DNA of 64,000 nt from Opitutia bacterium (GTDB lineage: Bacteria; Verrucomicrobiota; Verrucomicrobiia; Opitutales; T3Sed10-336). The notes under the pieces are model-generated. The model was not told where the DNA came from. It ran no database searches and was given only the letters and a program-made list of their open reading frames with translations. A program made the position numbers and the translations under genes. The stretch is taken from the NCBI GenBank assembly GCA_003566885.1, contig PXBO01000010.1, forward strand, positions 1-64,000, read 5' to 3'. Positions 52,740-60,302 of the stretch are shown in pieces (the stretch's first letter is position 1; each line of letters begins with the position of its first letter).

Positions 52740-52870
52740 AATTGTCTCTGGTGCAAAAACGACCACTTTTCCGGCAGGCGACTGGTCAAGGCAAGAAGAA
52801 AGGGCCTTTCATTTTTTGCTTGGGATCGCCGCCCAAGGGAATCATTGATGGAGCTTTCGCCTTTACCGCC

Positions 52871-54217
52871 ATGAACGTCACCGGTCTCGCCATCGTCCCA
52901 CCGCCAGACGCCTCCGCCATGCCGCGCGTCACACCGGAGTTGCTCGCCTCGGTGCTGGCCCGTTACTCCCGCAGCAACGACGGGCTGCAAGCCATCCTGG
53001 CCAAAGTCGACCTCGACGACCCGGATGCCTCCATCGACCGGATCCTTCGTTTTGTCGACTACGGTCACGCATCCATCGGCGGTCTTACCGGCGGCATTGC
53101 AATGGCGGTGGACGACGTTTCCATGTGGCTGGCCTACAAGATGTTCGAGATAGCGCAAATGGCCGATGGCCAGGAGTCGAGCACGCGCTACATCACCATG
53201 AGTTCGACCAACCTTCCGCAACCGGACGAGATAGGTTTGCCGCCGGAATTGGCCGACGAATGGACCGGATTAATGGCGGCTTCGTTCGAGGCCTACACCG
53301 AAGAGTACAGGCGCCTGGACCGGCTGGCGGAGGAGAACCCCGATGTGGTCCGGTACCCCGAAGATTCCAAACCGGCATTGATCCGGCGCTTGCGCAAGAA
53401 TTTCGCCTTGGATCGCGCCCGCTATTTCGTGCCGTTCGCCACCCGCACCAACCTCGCCCTGGTCATGTCCTCTCGCATGTGGGCGGAAACGGTCAAACAC
53501 CTGGATTCCCTGCCCCAACCGGAAGCCCGTCGCGCGGCGGAACTGCTGCGGAACGAACTGGAGAAAATCTCTCCCCGCCTGATGCGCCACAGTCGGCGCG
53601 ATACTTCGTTCGCCGCCCAGGCGGAGGCGGACCTGGAGTACAGTTTCGAAACCGGACTCGCCGGCCTGTCCCCGGATCACCTGTCCGATCAGGTCTGGGT
53701 TAAAACCGACGCCGACGCGCCCCCCTTTCTGCCGGAAACCCAGAGCACGGTCAACGCCCTCCGCGACCGCACCAACCGTTACAGCCGGGTGGGACGCGCG
53801 CTGCGACGGATGCGCGTGACCTTTGCCTGGAACAACCTGGCCGTCGCCGAACTGCGCGATCTGAACCGTCACCGCACCGGTCACCGCTTTACCCCGCTCG
53901 TCCAGCACGGATTTTATTTGCCTCCCGAAATCGACGCCGCGCGGCACCGACAGCTCCTGGAACGCCAAACCAACCTGTTGAAACGTCTTTTGGAGATGGG
54001 CTCCCCGGCCTACCCCTACGCCCTGTTGCTCGGCAGCCAAACTCCCTTCGAACACAGCACCCAGGCGGACAAGTTCGTGTATGAAGCGGAGTTGCGCACG
54101 GGCATGGGCGCTCATTTCCGCTACGCCGAACACCTCGGCGCCGCGTTGAGGGAGTTCTACAAGTCGGTTCCGGAAGTCCAACCCTGGGTGCAGGAAGGAA
54201 AGGCCGAACCGGAGTGA
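52871..54217 (+). CDS. double-domain ThyX-like (FAD-dependent thymidylate synthase family) protein
   Basis: 447 residues from MNVTGLAIVPPPDASAMPRV. The ORF starts earlier, but the preceding residues look like leader. Normal ThyX is about 220-250 residues with one RHRxxSxNExSxRY motif. Here the first half has FVDYGHASIGGLTGGIAMAV and MADGQESSTRYITMSS, keeping the E-x-S-x-R-Y end without the RHR. The second half has ELRDLNRHRTGHRFTPLVQH, keeping RHR without the Glu/Ser. So the motif is split over two ThyX-type halves. It may be a functional variant or a divergent paralogue. dTMP synthesis is inference. Confidence 0.75.
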   Translation: MNVTGLAIVPPPDASAMPRVTPELLASVLARYSRSNDGLQAILAKVDLDDPDASIDRILRFVDYGHASIGGLTGGIAMAVDDVSMWLAYKMFEIAQMADGQESSTRYITMSSTNLPQPDEIGLPPELADEWTGLMAASFEAYTEEYRRLDRLAEENPDVVRYPEDSKPALIRRLRKNFALDRARYFVPFATRTNLALVMSSRMWAETVKHLDSLPQPEARRAAELLRNELEKISPRLMRHSRRDTSFAAQAEADLEYSFETGLAGLSPDHLSDQVWVKTDADAPPFLPETQSTVNALRDRTNRYSRVGRALRRMRVTFAWNNLAVAELRDLNRHRTGHRFTPLVQHGFYLPPEIDAARHRQLLERQTNLLKRLLEMGSPAYPYALLLGSQTPFEHSTQADKFVYEAELRTGMGAHFRYAEHLGAALREFYKSVPEVQPWVQEGKAEPE

Positions 54218-54965: not shown

Positions 54966-56495
54966 CTAACCGGCCTCTGCCGGCGGCTCGAGGCCTTTAG
55001 TTTGCGGCCCCCGCGATAACTCCTGCGCGGGGGTGTGCAGGAAGGCGTGGAGGCGGGCGGCGGATTGCGGACCGATGCCGTCCACCTCGGCGATTTCGGC
55101 CGGAGTGGCTCGTTTCAGGCGTTGCAGGGAGCGAAACCGGGCCATGACCGCAGCCTTGCGTTTGGGTCCGAGCCCGGGAAAATCGTCGAGCATGGATTCC
55201 CGGATCCTCTTGCTGCGAAGCTCCGCGTTAAAGGTATTCGCAAAGCGGTGGGCCTCGTCGCGAATCCGTTGCAGCAGGCGCAGCGGAGGACTGTTGGAGG
55301 GCAGGTTGAGCGGAGCCCGTTCGTCGGGAAACACAATGGTTTCCTCCCGCTTGGCCAGACCGACCAACGCCGGCGGTTCAAGGTTGAGGACAAAGAACGC
55401 TTTCAGCGAAGCGGTCACCTGCCCGCGTCCCCCGTCGATCACCACCAAATCGGGGAACGGTTTTCCCTCGTCCGCCAATCGCCGGTAGCGTCGACCGACG
55501 ACCTCCTCCATGGCGCGGAAATCGTCGTTCCCCTCGAAGGACCGGATCCGGTAGCGCCGGTATTGGGTTTTGTCCGGGCGGCCGTCGGTAAAACGCACCA
55601 TCGAGGCCACGGAGTAGGTCCCCGAAATATGCGAAATATCGAAACATTCAATTACCCTGGGCGATCGGGACATTCCCAAAACCTCCATGAGTTCGGCCAG
55701 TTCGCCCCCGGGACGAAGCCCCGCCAGCGGGTCGCGGGTAAACTTGCGGGTCTTGAGCAGGGTCTTTTCCAGAGCCAACACCACATCGCGCAGTTCCGCC
55801 GCCTTTTCGTACCGCTGTTTTTCCGCCGCAGACGTCATGTCCGATCGCAGCCGCTCCAACCACTCCCGCGCCTTTCCTTCCAGAAAGGCACAGGCGTTTT
55901 CCACCCGATCACGGTACTCATCCGGCGAGACTTCGTTGGGAAACACCGTCAGTTCGCGCCGAACGTCATCGTACAGGCGATAACGGCCGTCGGGAAGGCG
56001 CGCCGGCGAGGCGTCCGCCAGGATTACGCCGAAACGGCGTCGCAATTCCTCAAGCGTTTTACGCAGGGGGCCGGCGTGAGCGAACGGTCCGAAGTAGCGT
56101 GAACGCTCGTCGGTGCGATTGCGGACCAGCCGGAAACGCGGTATGACCGCCTCCAGATCCACCCGCACCAGGAGAAAACGTTTGTCGTCGGTGAAATCGG
56201 TGTTGTAGCGGGGTTTCCACTCCTTGATCAGGCGGCCCTCGAGGAGGAGCGCCTCAGATTCCGATTTAACCTCGATCACGTCAAAATCCCGGATCATGGA
56301 GATCAGAGCCCGGATTTTCGGTTGGTGGATTCGACTGCGCGATGGTTGGAAATAAGTGGATACGCGTTTTTTGAGATTCTTCGCCTTGCCCACGTAGAGA
56401 ATCGTCCCCAGCCGATCCTTCATGAGATAAACTCCGGGACCGGAAGGCAATTTCCTGACCTTTTCCTTGATTTTGCTGGCGCCGCTCTCTGGCAT
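54966..56495 (-). CDS. uvrC: UvrC-type excinuclease, short form lacking the cysteine cluster
   Basis: 509 residues, about 100 shorter than typical UvrC. The GIY-YIG nuclease (about 15-95) has GPGVYLMKDRLGTILYVGKA and KNLKKRVSTYF. The region after RYFGPF that usually holds four cysteines reads RRRFGVILADASPARLPDGR, with none. The UVR motif is EKQRYEKAAELRDVVLALEK. The RNase H-like nuclease has VIECFDISHISGT, LVVIDGGRGQVTASL and RDEAHRFANTF, followed by twin helix-hairpin-helix (DDFPGLGPKRKAAVMARFRS, AEVDGIGPQSAARLHAFL). Makes the dual incisions in nucleotide excision repair. The segment between UVR and RNase H is also shortened. Confidence 0.9.
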   Translation of the reverse strand: MPESGASKIKEKVRKLPSGPGVYLMKDRLGTILYVGKAKNLKKRVSTYFQPSRSRIHQPKIRALISMIRDFDVIEVKSESEALLLEGRLIKEWKPRYNTDFTDDKRFLLVRVDLEAVIPRFRLVRNRTDERSRYFGPFAHAGPLRKTLEELRRRFGVILADASPARLPDGRYRLYDDVRRELTVFPNEVSPDEYRDRVENACAFLEGKAREWLERLRSDMTSAAEKQRYEKAAELRDVVLALEKTLLKTRKFTRDPLAGLRPGGELAELMEVLGMSRSPRVIECFDISHISGTYSVASMVRFTDGRPDKTQYRRYRIRSFEGNDDFRAMEEVVGRRYRRLADEGKPFPDLVVIDGGRGQVTASLKAFFVLNLEPPALVGLAKREETIVFPDERAPLNLPSNSPPLRLLQRIRDEAHRFANTFNAELRSKRIRESMLDDFPGLGPKRKAAVMARFRSLQRLKRATPAEIAEVDGIGPQSAARLHAFLHTPAQELSRGPQTKGLEPPAEAG

Positions 56496-56565: not shown

Positions 56566-57834
56566 ATGGGCTCCGGCAAGAATCTCGAGATAATCACCAT
56601 CGGCAACGAATTGCTGCTTGGCCGCGCCTACGAAAAACACCTGGGCTACCTGGCCGCGTGGCTCTATCCCCGCGGAGTGCATATTCGGCGCAGCGTGGTG
56701 GTCCGCGATTCCCCTGAGGAAATTGAGGACGAAGTGCGGAGAGGCTGGGAGCGGGCGGACCTGGTGATTACCACCGGGGGACTCGGCCCCACCTCCGACG
56801 ACCTCACGCGGGAAGCGGTGGCCAGGGTGCTGGGAGTGACGCTGTTTCGGGACGAGGAAACCGTCGGTCGGCTGGAGGCCTATTTCCGCGAGCGCGGGCG
56901 TCCCATGACGCCGAACAACCTGCGCCAGGCCGACCGGCCGCAAGGCTCGGAGCTGATCCCCAACCGGAACGGCACCGCTCCCGGAATCTGGTACCGCCGG
57001 GGAAACAAGGTCCTGATCATGCTCCCGGGACCCGCGGAGGAATTGCACCCCATGTTCGAAAACGAAATTTTGCCCCGGCTGGACACCGCGGGGTTGCTGG
57101 AGCCGGAGACGCCCTTTGTCGAGATCCGTACCGCCGGTTTGGGCGAGTCGGTATTGGAAACGACGCTCGAACCCCTTTTGAATCGTTTCCCCGGGATCAA
57201 AATTTCCTACCGGGCGCACAGCGCCCTGGTCGACGTCCGTCTCAGTTCCGAGGACGGCGCCTACGACCGCGAAGCTCTGGAAGCCATCGGAGCGGAATGC
57301 GCCGAGGCCCTGGGGGAAGATTTTGTGGGCTTTGGCTGTCAGATGCTCAGCCGGATCCTCTCCGACAAGTTGCGGGAACGCGATCAACTCCTGGCGGTGG
57401 CGGAATCCTGTACCGGGGGTCTGCTGGCGAGCTGTTTCACCGATATTCCCGGTGCCTCCAAAACCTTCGCCGGCGGGGTCGTGGCCTACACCAACGCCGC
57501 CAAAGTGCAGCTCCTGGGGGTTCCGGAATGCCTGCTCGCCCAACACGGCGCGGTGAGCCCGGAAGCCGCCGCGGCCATGGCTACCGGGGTCGCGGAACGC
57601 CTTTCCGCCGAGTACGCGCTAAGCATCACCGGTTTCGCAGGTCCCGGAGGCGGGAACCGGGAAAATCCGGTCGGCACCATCTACCTGGGACTGCACACCC
57701 CGGAAGGCGTCTGGTCCCGCCGGGTCAACTTCCCCGGCAGCCGCACCACCGTCAAGACCCGCGCCGTCAACGCCGCCCTCGACTGGCTCCGCCGGGAACT
57801 GGCGAAACCGATCGCCACCCCGAGCAACGCCTGA
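56566..57834 (+). CDS. cinA: CinA family protein (NMN deamidase / ADP-ribose pyrophosphatase)
   Basis: 422 residues with both classic halves. The N-terminal MoCF domain has EIITIGNELLLGRAYEKHLG, DLVITTGGLGPTSDDLTREA and GNKVLIMLPGPAEELHPMFE. The C-terminal CinA domain has LLAVAESCTGGLLASCFTDI, KTFAGGVVAYTNAAKVQLLG and ALSITGFAGPGGGNRENPVG. Full-length proteins deamidate NMN and hydrolyse ADP-ribose, recycling NAD by-products. It diverges from uvrC (70-nt gap). recA is not adjacent here, unlike in many genomes. Confidence 0.94.
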   Translation: MGSGKNLEIITIGNELLLGRAYEKHLGYLAAWLYPRGVHIRRSVVVRDSPEEIEDEVRRGWERADLVITTGGLGPTSDDLTREAVARVLGVTLFRDEETVGRLEAYFRERGRPMTPNNLRQADRPQGSELIPNRNGTAPGIWYRRGNKVLIMLPGPAEELHPMFENEILPRLDTAGLLEPETPFVEIRTAGLGESVLETTLEPLLNRFPGIKISYRAHSALVDVRLSSEDGAYDREALEAIGAECAEALGEDFVGFGCQMLSRILSDKLRERDQLLAVAESCTGGLLASCFTDIPGASKTFAGGVVAYTNAAKVQLLGVPECLLAQHGAVSPEAAAAMATGVAERLSAEYALSITGFAGPGGGNRENPVGTIYLGLHTPEGVWSRRVNFPGSRTTVKTRAVNAALDWLRRELAKPIATPSNA

Positions 57835-58025
57835 GTCCTAGCCTGCTCCCGGCCCTCCAACAAGACTTTCTGTCAAGTATATTTAGCCTGGCAAATTATT
57901 TACCCTCCTTGAATCGAATGCCCGGGCAATCTGGGGGTGGGAGGCAATGCCGCCCGTTCTCGAATAGACTTGTCCGCCCTTCCTCATCGGGACATTTTTC
58001 AGATTCCTGCTCCATTCCTTTCAAT

Positions 58026-60302
58026 ATGAAGACTCAACCCTCCAGTTTATTGTCGTTTTTCCATGGACTAATCCGGTCGTTACCCCGGGGCCTGATGCCG
58101 GGTTGGCATCACCGACGGGCGGTGACGTTCTGTGCCTTCATGGTCACCGGGCTCGTTGCCGGTCAGCCCTTTACCCAGGGGGCCGAAAACCTGGTGTGGG
58201 AATGGCGGAATCCGCTGCCCCAGGGAAATACGCTTCAAAGTGTCGTTCACGTTGACGACAAGCTGATCGCTGTCGGATCCGGTGGAACGATTATTACGAG
58301 CGACGGGATCGAATTGAGCACTCAGACGCTCGGTTCGACCATCAATCTGTTCGATATCGCCAGGAACGGATCGATCTATGTCGCCGTGGGGAGTAAAGAC
58401 GGCAACCTCGTCACGGTCTCAAGTCACGATGGAGAATCCTGGTCCATTCAGACTTTCGAAGATGCGGGATCCCTTCGTGCGGTGATTTGGAACGGGAGCT
58501 CATTTTTCACGGCGGGCACAGGCGGGCGCATACGTCAAAGCGAAGACGGAACCCATTGGGAAACACGCGATGTATCGGCATCGGCATGGTTCGAAGCCAT
58601 TGTGTGGACGGGAGATCAACTGGTCGCCGTCGGCGGGGTACCCGGCGGGGGTAGAACGCCCCCAAGACGGGTCGTCGCCACCAGCGCAGACGGAATCGAC
58701 TGGGATGTCCAGGAAACCACCGACGCCACGCCACTTACCTCAATTGCCTGGAATGGCTCCCGCTATATTGCCACCGTGGACTGGTACCCTTCGATCCTGG
58801 GCAGCACCAATGCCACGGATTGGGAAACCGTCCATTCCACAGGGGATGCCAGGGCGCAATCGGTGACCTCGAACGGGAGTGAATTCCTCGCCGTTGGCAC
58901 AAACGGCAGCCTTTTCCGCAGTACGGACGGTCTGAGTTGGACCCATCAGGAAATCGGGTTCGGGGGCGTGCTTCAATCGATCACCCCAACGCCTAATGGG
59001 GCCGCCGTAGTGGGAAACGGCGGTTTTTTCGCGTTCAGCGATACGCTTTCCGACTGGACCACTCTCGCAAGTGGATTTTTTGAAACCCTGCACGACGTTT
59101 CCTGGAACGGGGAACGCTTCATTGCTGTGGGCGATAACGGCCGGATACTCACCAGCACGGAAGGAATCGATTGGACACCGGTTGAATCCGGAACAACGGA
59201 AATCCTTTTCGGCCTTTTGGAAACCGAAGAAAGAATCGTGGCCGTTGGCACAAACGGGCGAATTGTTGTCAGCGAGGCTGGCACGCCTTTCGAGGTTCGT
59301 GATTCGGGAGTGAGCACAACTTTAAGGGATATTGCCGACAGCGGTGAACGGTACGTCGCGGTCGGCCACAGCGGTACCATCGTGACGAGTGCTGACGCAG
59401 CAACCTGGTCCGAGGTGGAAACGTCCACTAACGTAACACTGTACAGCATCGCCTGGCAAGATGGCCTCTTTGTCGCTGTGGGAAGCAACGGCACAATCTT
59501 GACCAGTCCTGACGGAAACGAATGGGAGATCGAGGATTCCATTACCATATGGCCGCTGGAAGGCATTGCTTCAAATGGCACGACGTGGGTGGCTACCGGG
59601 AACCAACAATCAGTGGCGACGAGTTCCAACGGCAAGGATTGGCAAAACATTGCGAACGCCGTCGAACACAACATTTCTTCACTTTTTTGGAGCGGAACTG
59701 AGTTTATAGGCCTGGGCACGGGCTGGATTTCAACCAGCCCGGACGGATCGAATTGGGAATCCGCGCGTTTACCCGTAACCCATGCCCTCAAGGCCGCCGC
59801 GTGGGACGGCCGACAGTATATCGTAGTTGGAACCCATGGATCCATCCTCTCTGGAGAAGCGCACAGTCCTGAAAACACGTTTACCGCCTGGCTGCACGAC
59901 CATTTTGACGAAACCGAGCTGGAGAACGAAGTCCTTTCCGATCCGGAATCGGATCCGGGTGGTTTCGGAATCAACAATCTCCTGCGTTACGCCTTTGATC
60001 TCGATCCGCGTCATCCCAATATCCACGATATTTCTCACGTTGCGACCACCTCGCTTGAGGATCCCGAAGGTGACTATATCGTCATAACCTTTTCGCGGCG
60101 CGCCAACGCGGCCGATCTTGAATACCAAGTGGAGAGCGGCGACCAGCCGGGATCATGGCAGCACCTTGATGAGAATTACTTTGTCGAGGCTTCCCCGACG
60201 GAAAACGAGGCGTTGGAATTGGTCACCTATCGCGACAGCGTCCCCATCGGCGAAACAGACTCGCGCTTTATGCGAGTGACGGTAAAGCTTGTGGATCCCT
60301 AA
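58026..60302 (+). CDS. large secreted beta-propeller-like repeat protein
   Basis: 758 residues from MKTQPSSLLSFFHGLIRSLP. The listed ORF runs back into cinA, but the signal-like hydrophobic stretch AVTFCAFMVTGLVAG is here. More than a dozen repeats of about 40 residues follow, each with a core W-N-G..(F/Y)-(I/V)-A-V-G..G-.-I-.-.-S-.-D-G-.-.-W (RFIAVGDNGRILTSTEGIDW, LFVAVGSNGTILTSPDGNEW), as in YCF48/BNR-type propellers. The C-terminal 110 residues (DPGGFGINNLLRYAFDLDPR, YIVITFSRRANAADLEYQVE) form a module frequent in verrucomicrobial secreted proteins. Function unknown. holA starts 5 nt after the stop. Confidence 0.82.
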   Translation: MKTQPSSLLSFFHGLIRSLPRGLMPGWHHRRAVTFCAFMVTGLVAGQPFTQGAENLVWEWRNPLPQGNTLQSVVHVDDKLIAVGSGGTIITSDGIELSTQTLGSTINLFDIARNGSIYVAVGSKDGNLVTVSSHDGESWSIQTFEDAGSLRAVIWNGSSFFTAGTGGRIRQSEDGTHWETRDVSASAWFEAIVWTGDQLVAVGGVPGGGRTPPRRVVATSADGIDWDVQETTDATPLTSIAWNGSRYIATVDWYPSILGSTNATDWETVHSTGDARAQSVTSNGSEFLAVGTNGSLFRSTDGLSWTHQEIGFGGVLQSITPTPNGAAVVGNGGFFAFSDTLSDWTTLASGFFETLHDVSWNGERFIAVGDNGRILTSTEGIDWTPVESGTTEILFGLLETEERIVAVGTNGRIVVSEAGTPFEVRDSGVSTTLRDIADSGERYVAVGHSGTIVTSADAATWSEVETSTNVTLYSIAWQDGLFVAVGSNGTILTSPDGNEWEIEDSITIWPLEGIASNGTTWVATGNQQSVATSSNGKDWQNIANAVEHNISSLFWSGTEFIGLGTGWISTSPDGSNWESARLPVTHALKAAAWDGRQYIVVGTHGSILSGEAHSPENTFTAWLHDHFDETELENEVLSDPESDPGGFGINNLLRYAFDLDPRHPNIHDISHVATTSLEDPEGDYIVITFSRRANAADLEYQVESGDQPGSWQHLDENYFVEASPTENEALELVTYRDSVPIGETDSRFMRVTVKLVDP

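Follow-up and report, generated by a model that had tools for sequence, protein, structure and literature searches.

The uvrC gene of this locus raises the question of whether a UvrC protein that has lost the cysteines considered characteristic of the family can still be the ordinary excision repair nuclease of its host. The existence of a [4Fe-4S] cluster in UvrC is said to have been shown recently, reportedly in J Am Chem Soc in 2020, and its role is debated, DNA binding being set against redox signalling over DNA. The four-cysteine region ('C4') is listed among the characteristics of UvrC (PMC1564403), and a 2020 study, as cited in passages of PMC9426483 and PMC8837605, implicates the cluster in DNA binding and charge transport. 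The window, i.e., the whole stretch of 64,000 nucleotides that was analysed, belongs to an Opitutia bacterium of the order Opitutales, and its features relevant to the question are the following.

54966..56495, minus strand: uvrC, coding for 509 aa from an ATG start, free of the four cysteines and without PF22920; recognised by its TIGR00194 match and its Pfam domains.
56202..56435, minus strand: GIY-YIG nuclease domain (residues 21-98, PF01541), predicted to perform the 3' incision; Y23, Y34, R44, E86 and N98 are kept.
55920..56039, minus strand: former iron-sulfur site (residues 153-192), from a column-by-column comparison of 52 Opitutales with 81 Cys-bearing UvrCs.
55764..55859, minus strand: UVR motif, putatively UvrB-binding (residues 213-244; PF02151, 34 bits).
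55701..55763, minus strand: short linker (residues 245-265), at the position of PF22920 in the E. coli-type UvrC.
55239..55685, minus strand: RNase H endonuclease domain (residues 271-419; PF08459, 179 bits), predicted to perform the 5' incision; D286, D354 and H416 are kept.
55038..55193, minus strand: helix-hairpin-helix (HhH) pair (residues 435-486; PF14520, PF12826, PF00633), the PF14520/PF12826 matches reaching residue 490.
56566..57834, plus strand: cinA (NMN amidase/competence-damage protein; PF02464, NF001813), the divergent neighbour of uvrC.

The 509-aa protein passed the whole-protein UvrC equivalog model TIGR00194 (382.4 bits versus a cut-off of 285.45). The catalytic residues of its GIY-YIG domain occupy alignment columns that are invariant in 52/52 Opitutales UvrCs, and the columns of the D-D-H triad of the RNase H domain are likewise invariant in the UvrCs of the order; the statement of the first-pass annotation that the two nuclease sites and the HhH pair persist is thus borne out by the Pfam domains and by these columns. 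Among the features of the family, the TIGR00194 match, a GIY-YIG domain with the catalytic Tyr, Arg, Glu and Asn, the UVR motif, the RNase H triad and the C-terminal HhH pair were found, and two are missing, namely the four conserved cysteines of the C4 region and the PF22920 domain that separates UVR motif and nuclease in other UvrCs. By descent and architecture, the predicted protein is a member of UvrC without the usual C4 feature. A Cho or Cho-like paralogue was discarded, the RNase H domain and the HhH pair being both present and the Cho model NF007833 giving only 40 bits versus 367. In a structure model, the RNase H domain resembled 2nrr in fold (TM 0.88 on the target). Neither sequence nor fold searches of the Protein Data Bank copy used returned a solved full-length UvrC, and a full-length structure was missing from the field as of PMC9426483.

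The alignment to the Cys-bearing relatives places the four ligand columns at positions 160, 173, 181 and 185 of the window protein, where A, R, E and F are found in place of the cysteines present in 81/81 Cys-bearing UvrCs. The stretch that had been quoted as devoid of cysteines, RRRFGVILADASPARLPDGR, corresponds to residues 152-171, and no cysteine occurs in residues 120-200, which confirms the claim; as an example from the phylum UvrC alignments, a Cys-bearing form of the site reads FGLRSCNALIPTEKDYKHCLDHIIKNCSAPCIGKI versus FGVILADASPARLPDGRYRLYDDVRRELTVFPNEV in the window protein. The first-pass annotation had also envisaged that the cysteines might be displaced elsewhere in the protein. 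The sole cysteines of the window UvrC are C202 and C284, and since both are also common in the Cys-bearing relatives (42/81 and 59/81, respectively), they are to be regarded as old non-ligand positions rather than as displaced ligands.

The loss extends well beyond the window. The main set comprised 135 sequences, 81 with the four cysteines (80 from Verrucomicrobiota plus E. coli) and 54 without, i.e., 52 from the order of the window and two from another family of the same class (f13). Two sequences escaped the cysteine pattern owing to a shorter spacing, even though all four cysteines are present, namely L031, scored as Cys-free, and the B. subtilis control. Among 30 further genomes, 25 had the four cysteines and five, all from the window's order, did not. 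Overall, the four cysteines are absent in 57/57 of the Opitutales genomes sampled and in 80/80 loci of named genomes (best matches with Opitutales, Opitutia or Opitutaceae in the title), and they are kept by 105/105 Verrucomicrobiota of other lineages, family f13 aside. The set of four cysteines is complete in each of the six UvrCs representing other phyla and classes (Bacteroides, Streptomyces, Bacillus, Sinorhizobium, Acetoanaerobium and E. coli), the sampling beyond Verrucomicrobiota being as light as these six genomes; Borrelia, known for living almost without iron, would be an obvious lineage in which to look further. On the basis of these counts, the loss is clade-wide, as the first-pass annotation had proposed to check, and is fixed across the sampled order. 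A description of a Cys-free UvrC was not found in a literature search that covered part of the literature.

Since the four cysteines are present in E. coli and in the other phyla, the direction of the change is a loss and not a gain. A phylogenetic tree built without the columns of the site itself needs two changes. In a second tree, built with more care from 43 rows, Opitutales form a clade with support 100/100, and family f13 is placed within the clade of the remaining families of the class; the two were joined in 0/200 bootstrap trees, and a tree forcing them together was rejected (AU p = 0.008). A single loss shared with f13 is rejected by the tree and the AU test. According to these phylogenies, f13 (loci L032 and L161) lost the cysteines independently of Opitutales, and its site, GVLTFGRGAPNERELKSSTYQVPVRLSEL, also differs: about 5-6 residues are deleted and the LYDDxR motif of Opitutales is not found.

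In Opitutales, the old cluster site carries a highly conserved replacement motif (P164 and LYDDxRxEIY), in which P164, Y175 and R179 occur in 52/52 UvrCs, D177 in 51/52, L174 in 50/52, D161 in 49/52 and E181 in 48/52. The dN/dS ratio versus six close relatives is about 0.08-0.22; with the site included the range is about 0.07-0.22, site and whole protein being similarly constrained, and both are crude estimates with saturated dS. The alignments thus depict a site that is rebuilt with a new conserved motif and not left to decay, in a protein that is under purifying selection with all the catalytic residues kept. An AlphaFold2 model of the whole chain, based on 35 sequences, is of moderate confidence (mean pLDDT 77, pTM 0.47), and residues 151-200 (pLDDT 77-90) were modelled without a cluster, AlphaFold not modelling clusters.

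It is conceivable, albeit doubtful, that the rebuilt site has exchanged a redox-sensitive control of DNA binding for a charge network or for a different metal, and non-Cys residues may hold a cluster or a metal in the Opitutales UvrC. The more specific proposal, that D161, D176, D177, E181 and H185 form a different metal site substituting structurally for the cluster, is improbable. The conservation of the acidic residues reported above and H185 in 31/52 sequences agree with it; however, many Opitutales have F, Q, G or A at position 185 (F in the window protein), E181 together with the invariant R179 fits salt bridges better, and f13 met the loss by a deletion, without these acidic and histidine residues.

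The window UvrC is 101 aa shorter than that of E. coli (610 aa), in agreement with the shortening of about 100 residues in the middle of the protein that had been noticed at first. What is missing is PF22920, a second RNase H-like domain that in E. coli UvrC occupies about 118 residues (251-368); in the window protein the gap falls downstream of the Cys site, after the UVR motif (213-244) and before the RNase H domain (271-419). PF22920 was not matched in the window UvrC even at E <= 10, nor in any of the 195 Verrucomicrobiota genomes searched, including lineages with all four cysteines, and it is present in 11/12 control genomes with a UvrC, the exception being Thermotoga maritima. The spacing between positions q250 and q266 is 17 residues in the window protein and 17-21 in the Verrucomicrobiota of the further-genome set, Cys-bearing or not, versus 131-141 in other phyla. 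UvrCs without the middle are described for Helicobacter felis and H. suis in PMC9426483; these proteins and that of T. maritima share with the window UvrC a middle that is absent or not recognised as PF22920. The short middle and the lost cysteines had been joined in the first-pass annotation; since PF22920 is absent phylum-wide, also where the four cysteines remain, they are better regarded as separate events, the domain loss being, from its distribution, phylum-wide, older than the loss of the cysteines and not its cause.

Two comparisons summarise the position of the Opitutales form. With the orthodox UvrC (TIGR00194; E. coli and B. subtilis type) it shares the order of the GIY-YIG, UVR, RNase H and HhH elements, the catalytic residues and the single copy, and it differs in having neither the four-Cys site nor PF22920. 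With the short Cys-bearing UvrCs of other Verrucomicrobiota (L012, L166, L024) it shares a length of about 490-545 aa, the domain set and the lack of a detectable PF22920; these proteins, 37-49% identical to the window protein, differ in keeping all four cysteines as C-x12-C-x7-C-x3-C. The disappearance of both a domain and a cofactor site might suggest that the Opitutales UvrC no longer has a repair function, either drifting or having acquired a new role. This is very unlikely, given the invariant catalytic residues, a dN/dS well below 1, the persistence of the UVR motif and of UvrB, and a domain loss that is earlier and extends to the whole phylum.

As for the copy number, searches of the window's assembly with PF08459 (UvrC RNase H domain) and PF01541 (GIY-YIG) each gave a single hit above the cut-off, in both cases the 54966-56495 gene. 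All eight genomes of the family have one UvrC each, and so do the genomes of the order with a UvrC match (in G312, a single gene was matched in two pieces); no full-length or Cys-bearing UvrC was found beside the Cys-free one in the genomes of the order examined. The uvrC gene adjoins cinA, in divergent orientation, in 79/80 named Opitutales loci, and this conserved neighbourhood points to a vertical orthologue. These data do not favour the suggestion of the first-pass annotation that the protein is a specialised second UvrC, i.e., a paralogue of an ordinary Cys-bearing UvrC encoded at another locus. The window's assembly is 67.6% complete and a second copy could be missing from it, but complete or nearly complete genomes of the same order have one UvrC, which is Cys-free, and the vertical clade in the tree and the place beside cinA render a paralogue exceedingly improbable. 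UvrB was not found in the incomplete genome of the window and is full in all the relatives tested (same-genus and same-order genomes), from which the partners of the window's genome are inferred. Finally, a frameshift, chimera or assembly error hiding the cysteines in this draft assembly has a negligible likelihood, as uvrC is a single open frame aligning almost end to end with 80 relatives, the other two frames across the site are interrupted by stop codons and lack a C4 motif, and the same Cys-free site recurs across the order, in 57 further or related genomes and in the 80 named loci, from independent assemblies, some of them single-contig.

Other observations were made on the same genomes. 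Just past the window (G000:C39:67718-67849, locus L222), a 125-aa ORF gave a sub-threshold GIY-YIG match of 13.3 bits. Thirteen same-order genomes (G398, G409, G410, G413, G417, G420, G421, G429, G430, G432, G439, G441 and G443) have no UvrC RNase H domain; they are small, about 0.8-1.1 Mb and mostly >90% complete, as if excision repair had been lost with genome reduction. Within the window, a ThyX-like protein of 491 aa (52742-54217, plus strand) has the Pfam Thy1 domain on residues 65-278 and scored 33 bits with the thyX equivalog, whose cut-off is 88; of the motif pieces, ESSTRY lies in one half and RDLNRHRTGHRF in the other, suggesting that this ThyX is extended or split. A long ORF (57297-60302, plus strand) overlaps cinA in a different frame, and the part past cinA contains VAVGxxGTIxxSxDGxxW-type repeats, its putative product being by appearance a beta-propeller-like secreted protein.

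In the clade under study, the few matches to the short model PF10576 at first suggested a general loss of iron-sulfur clusters from repair enzymes. This was ruled out by the MutY-type proteins of the same Opitutales genomes, which keep C-x6-C-x2-C-x5-C (CSRRRPLCAACPVVTFC in the window's genome); hence, [4Fe-4S] repair enzymes are still made, and the change in UvrC is not part of a general cluster loss. A 'clusterless' MutY is mentioned in PMC11078426 and represents a precedent, the [4Fe-4S] cysteines being lost and the catalytic domain kept as in the Opitutales UvrC, in a different enzyme family and pathway. The endonuclease III-like Nth proteins (L231, L232, L234, L237, L238, L239) have C-terminal cysteines in an unusual spacing, e.g., CTARRCDGTVCEICRTC, in Opitutales and in one same-class genome (G028), whereas families f12, f13 and f23 have the usual C-x6-C-x2-C-x5-C.

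Taken together, the comparisons indicate that the window protein is very probably the normal housekeeping UvrC of Opitutales, present in one copy and performing the usual two incisions without a [4Fe-4S] cluster. The reading of the cluster as dispensable, offered in the first-pass annotation, gains support, since the Cys-free UvrC is the sole copy in each genome with a UvrC, is under purifying selection with its catalytic residues kept, and the cysteines were lost twice; as a sole UvrC has lost all four and kept both cutting sites, repair can probably proceed without the cluster. The Opitutales UvrC would be active in excision repair through the standard UvrABC dual incision: the UVR motif would recruit it to UvrB, the HhH pair would hold the DNA, and the GIY-YIG and RNase H domains would cut on the 3' and 5' sides, respectively. 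The region after the GIY-YIG domain would fold without metal, its shape being held by hydrophobic packing and charge contacts or salt bridges, and the cluster of other bacteria would be accessory to incision, e.g., in DNA binding or redox sensing.

If these proteins are repair-active, the existence of Cys-free UvrCs in a whole order and in an independent family would argue against a need for the cluster in the cutting chemistry, and these natural UvrCs would be ready-made proteins to test its role. The second RNase H-like domain is likewise dispensable across a phylum, so that a UvrC of ~500 residues would be a smaller, cluster-free target for a full-length structure. Should redox control have indeed been replaced, the two lineages would represent natural UvrCs in which the function of the cluster is uncoupled from incision.
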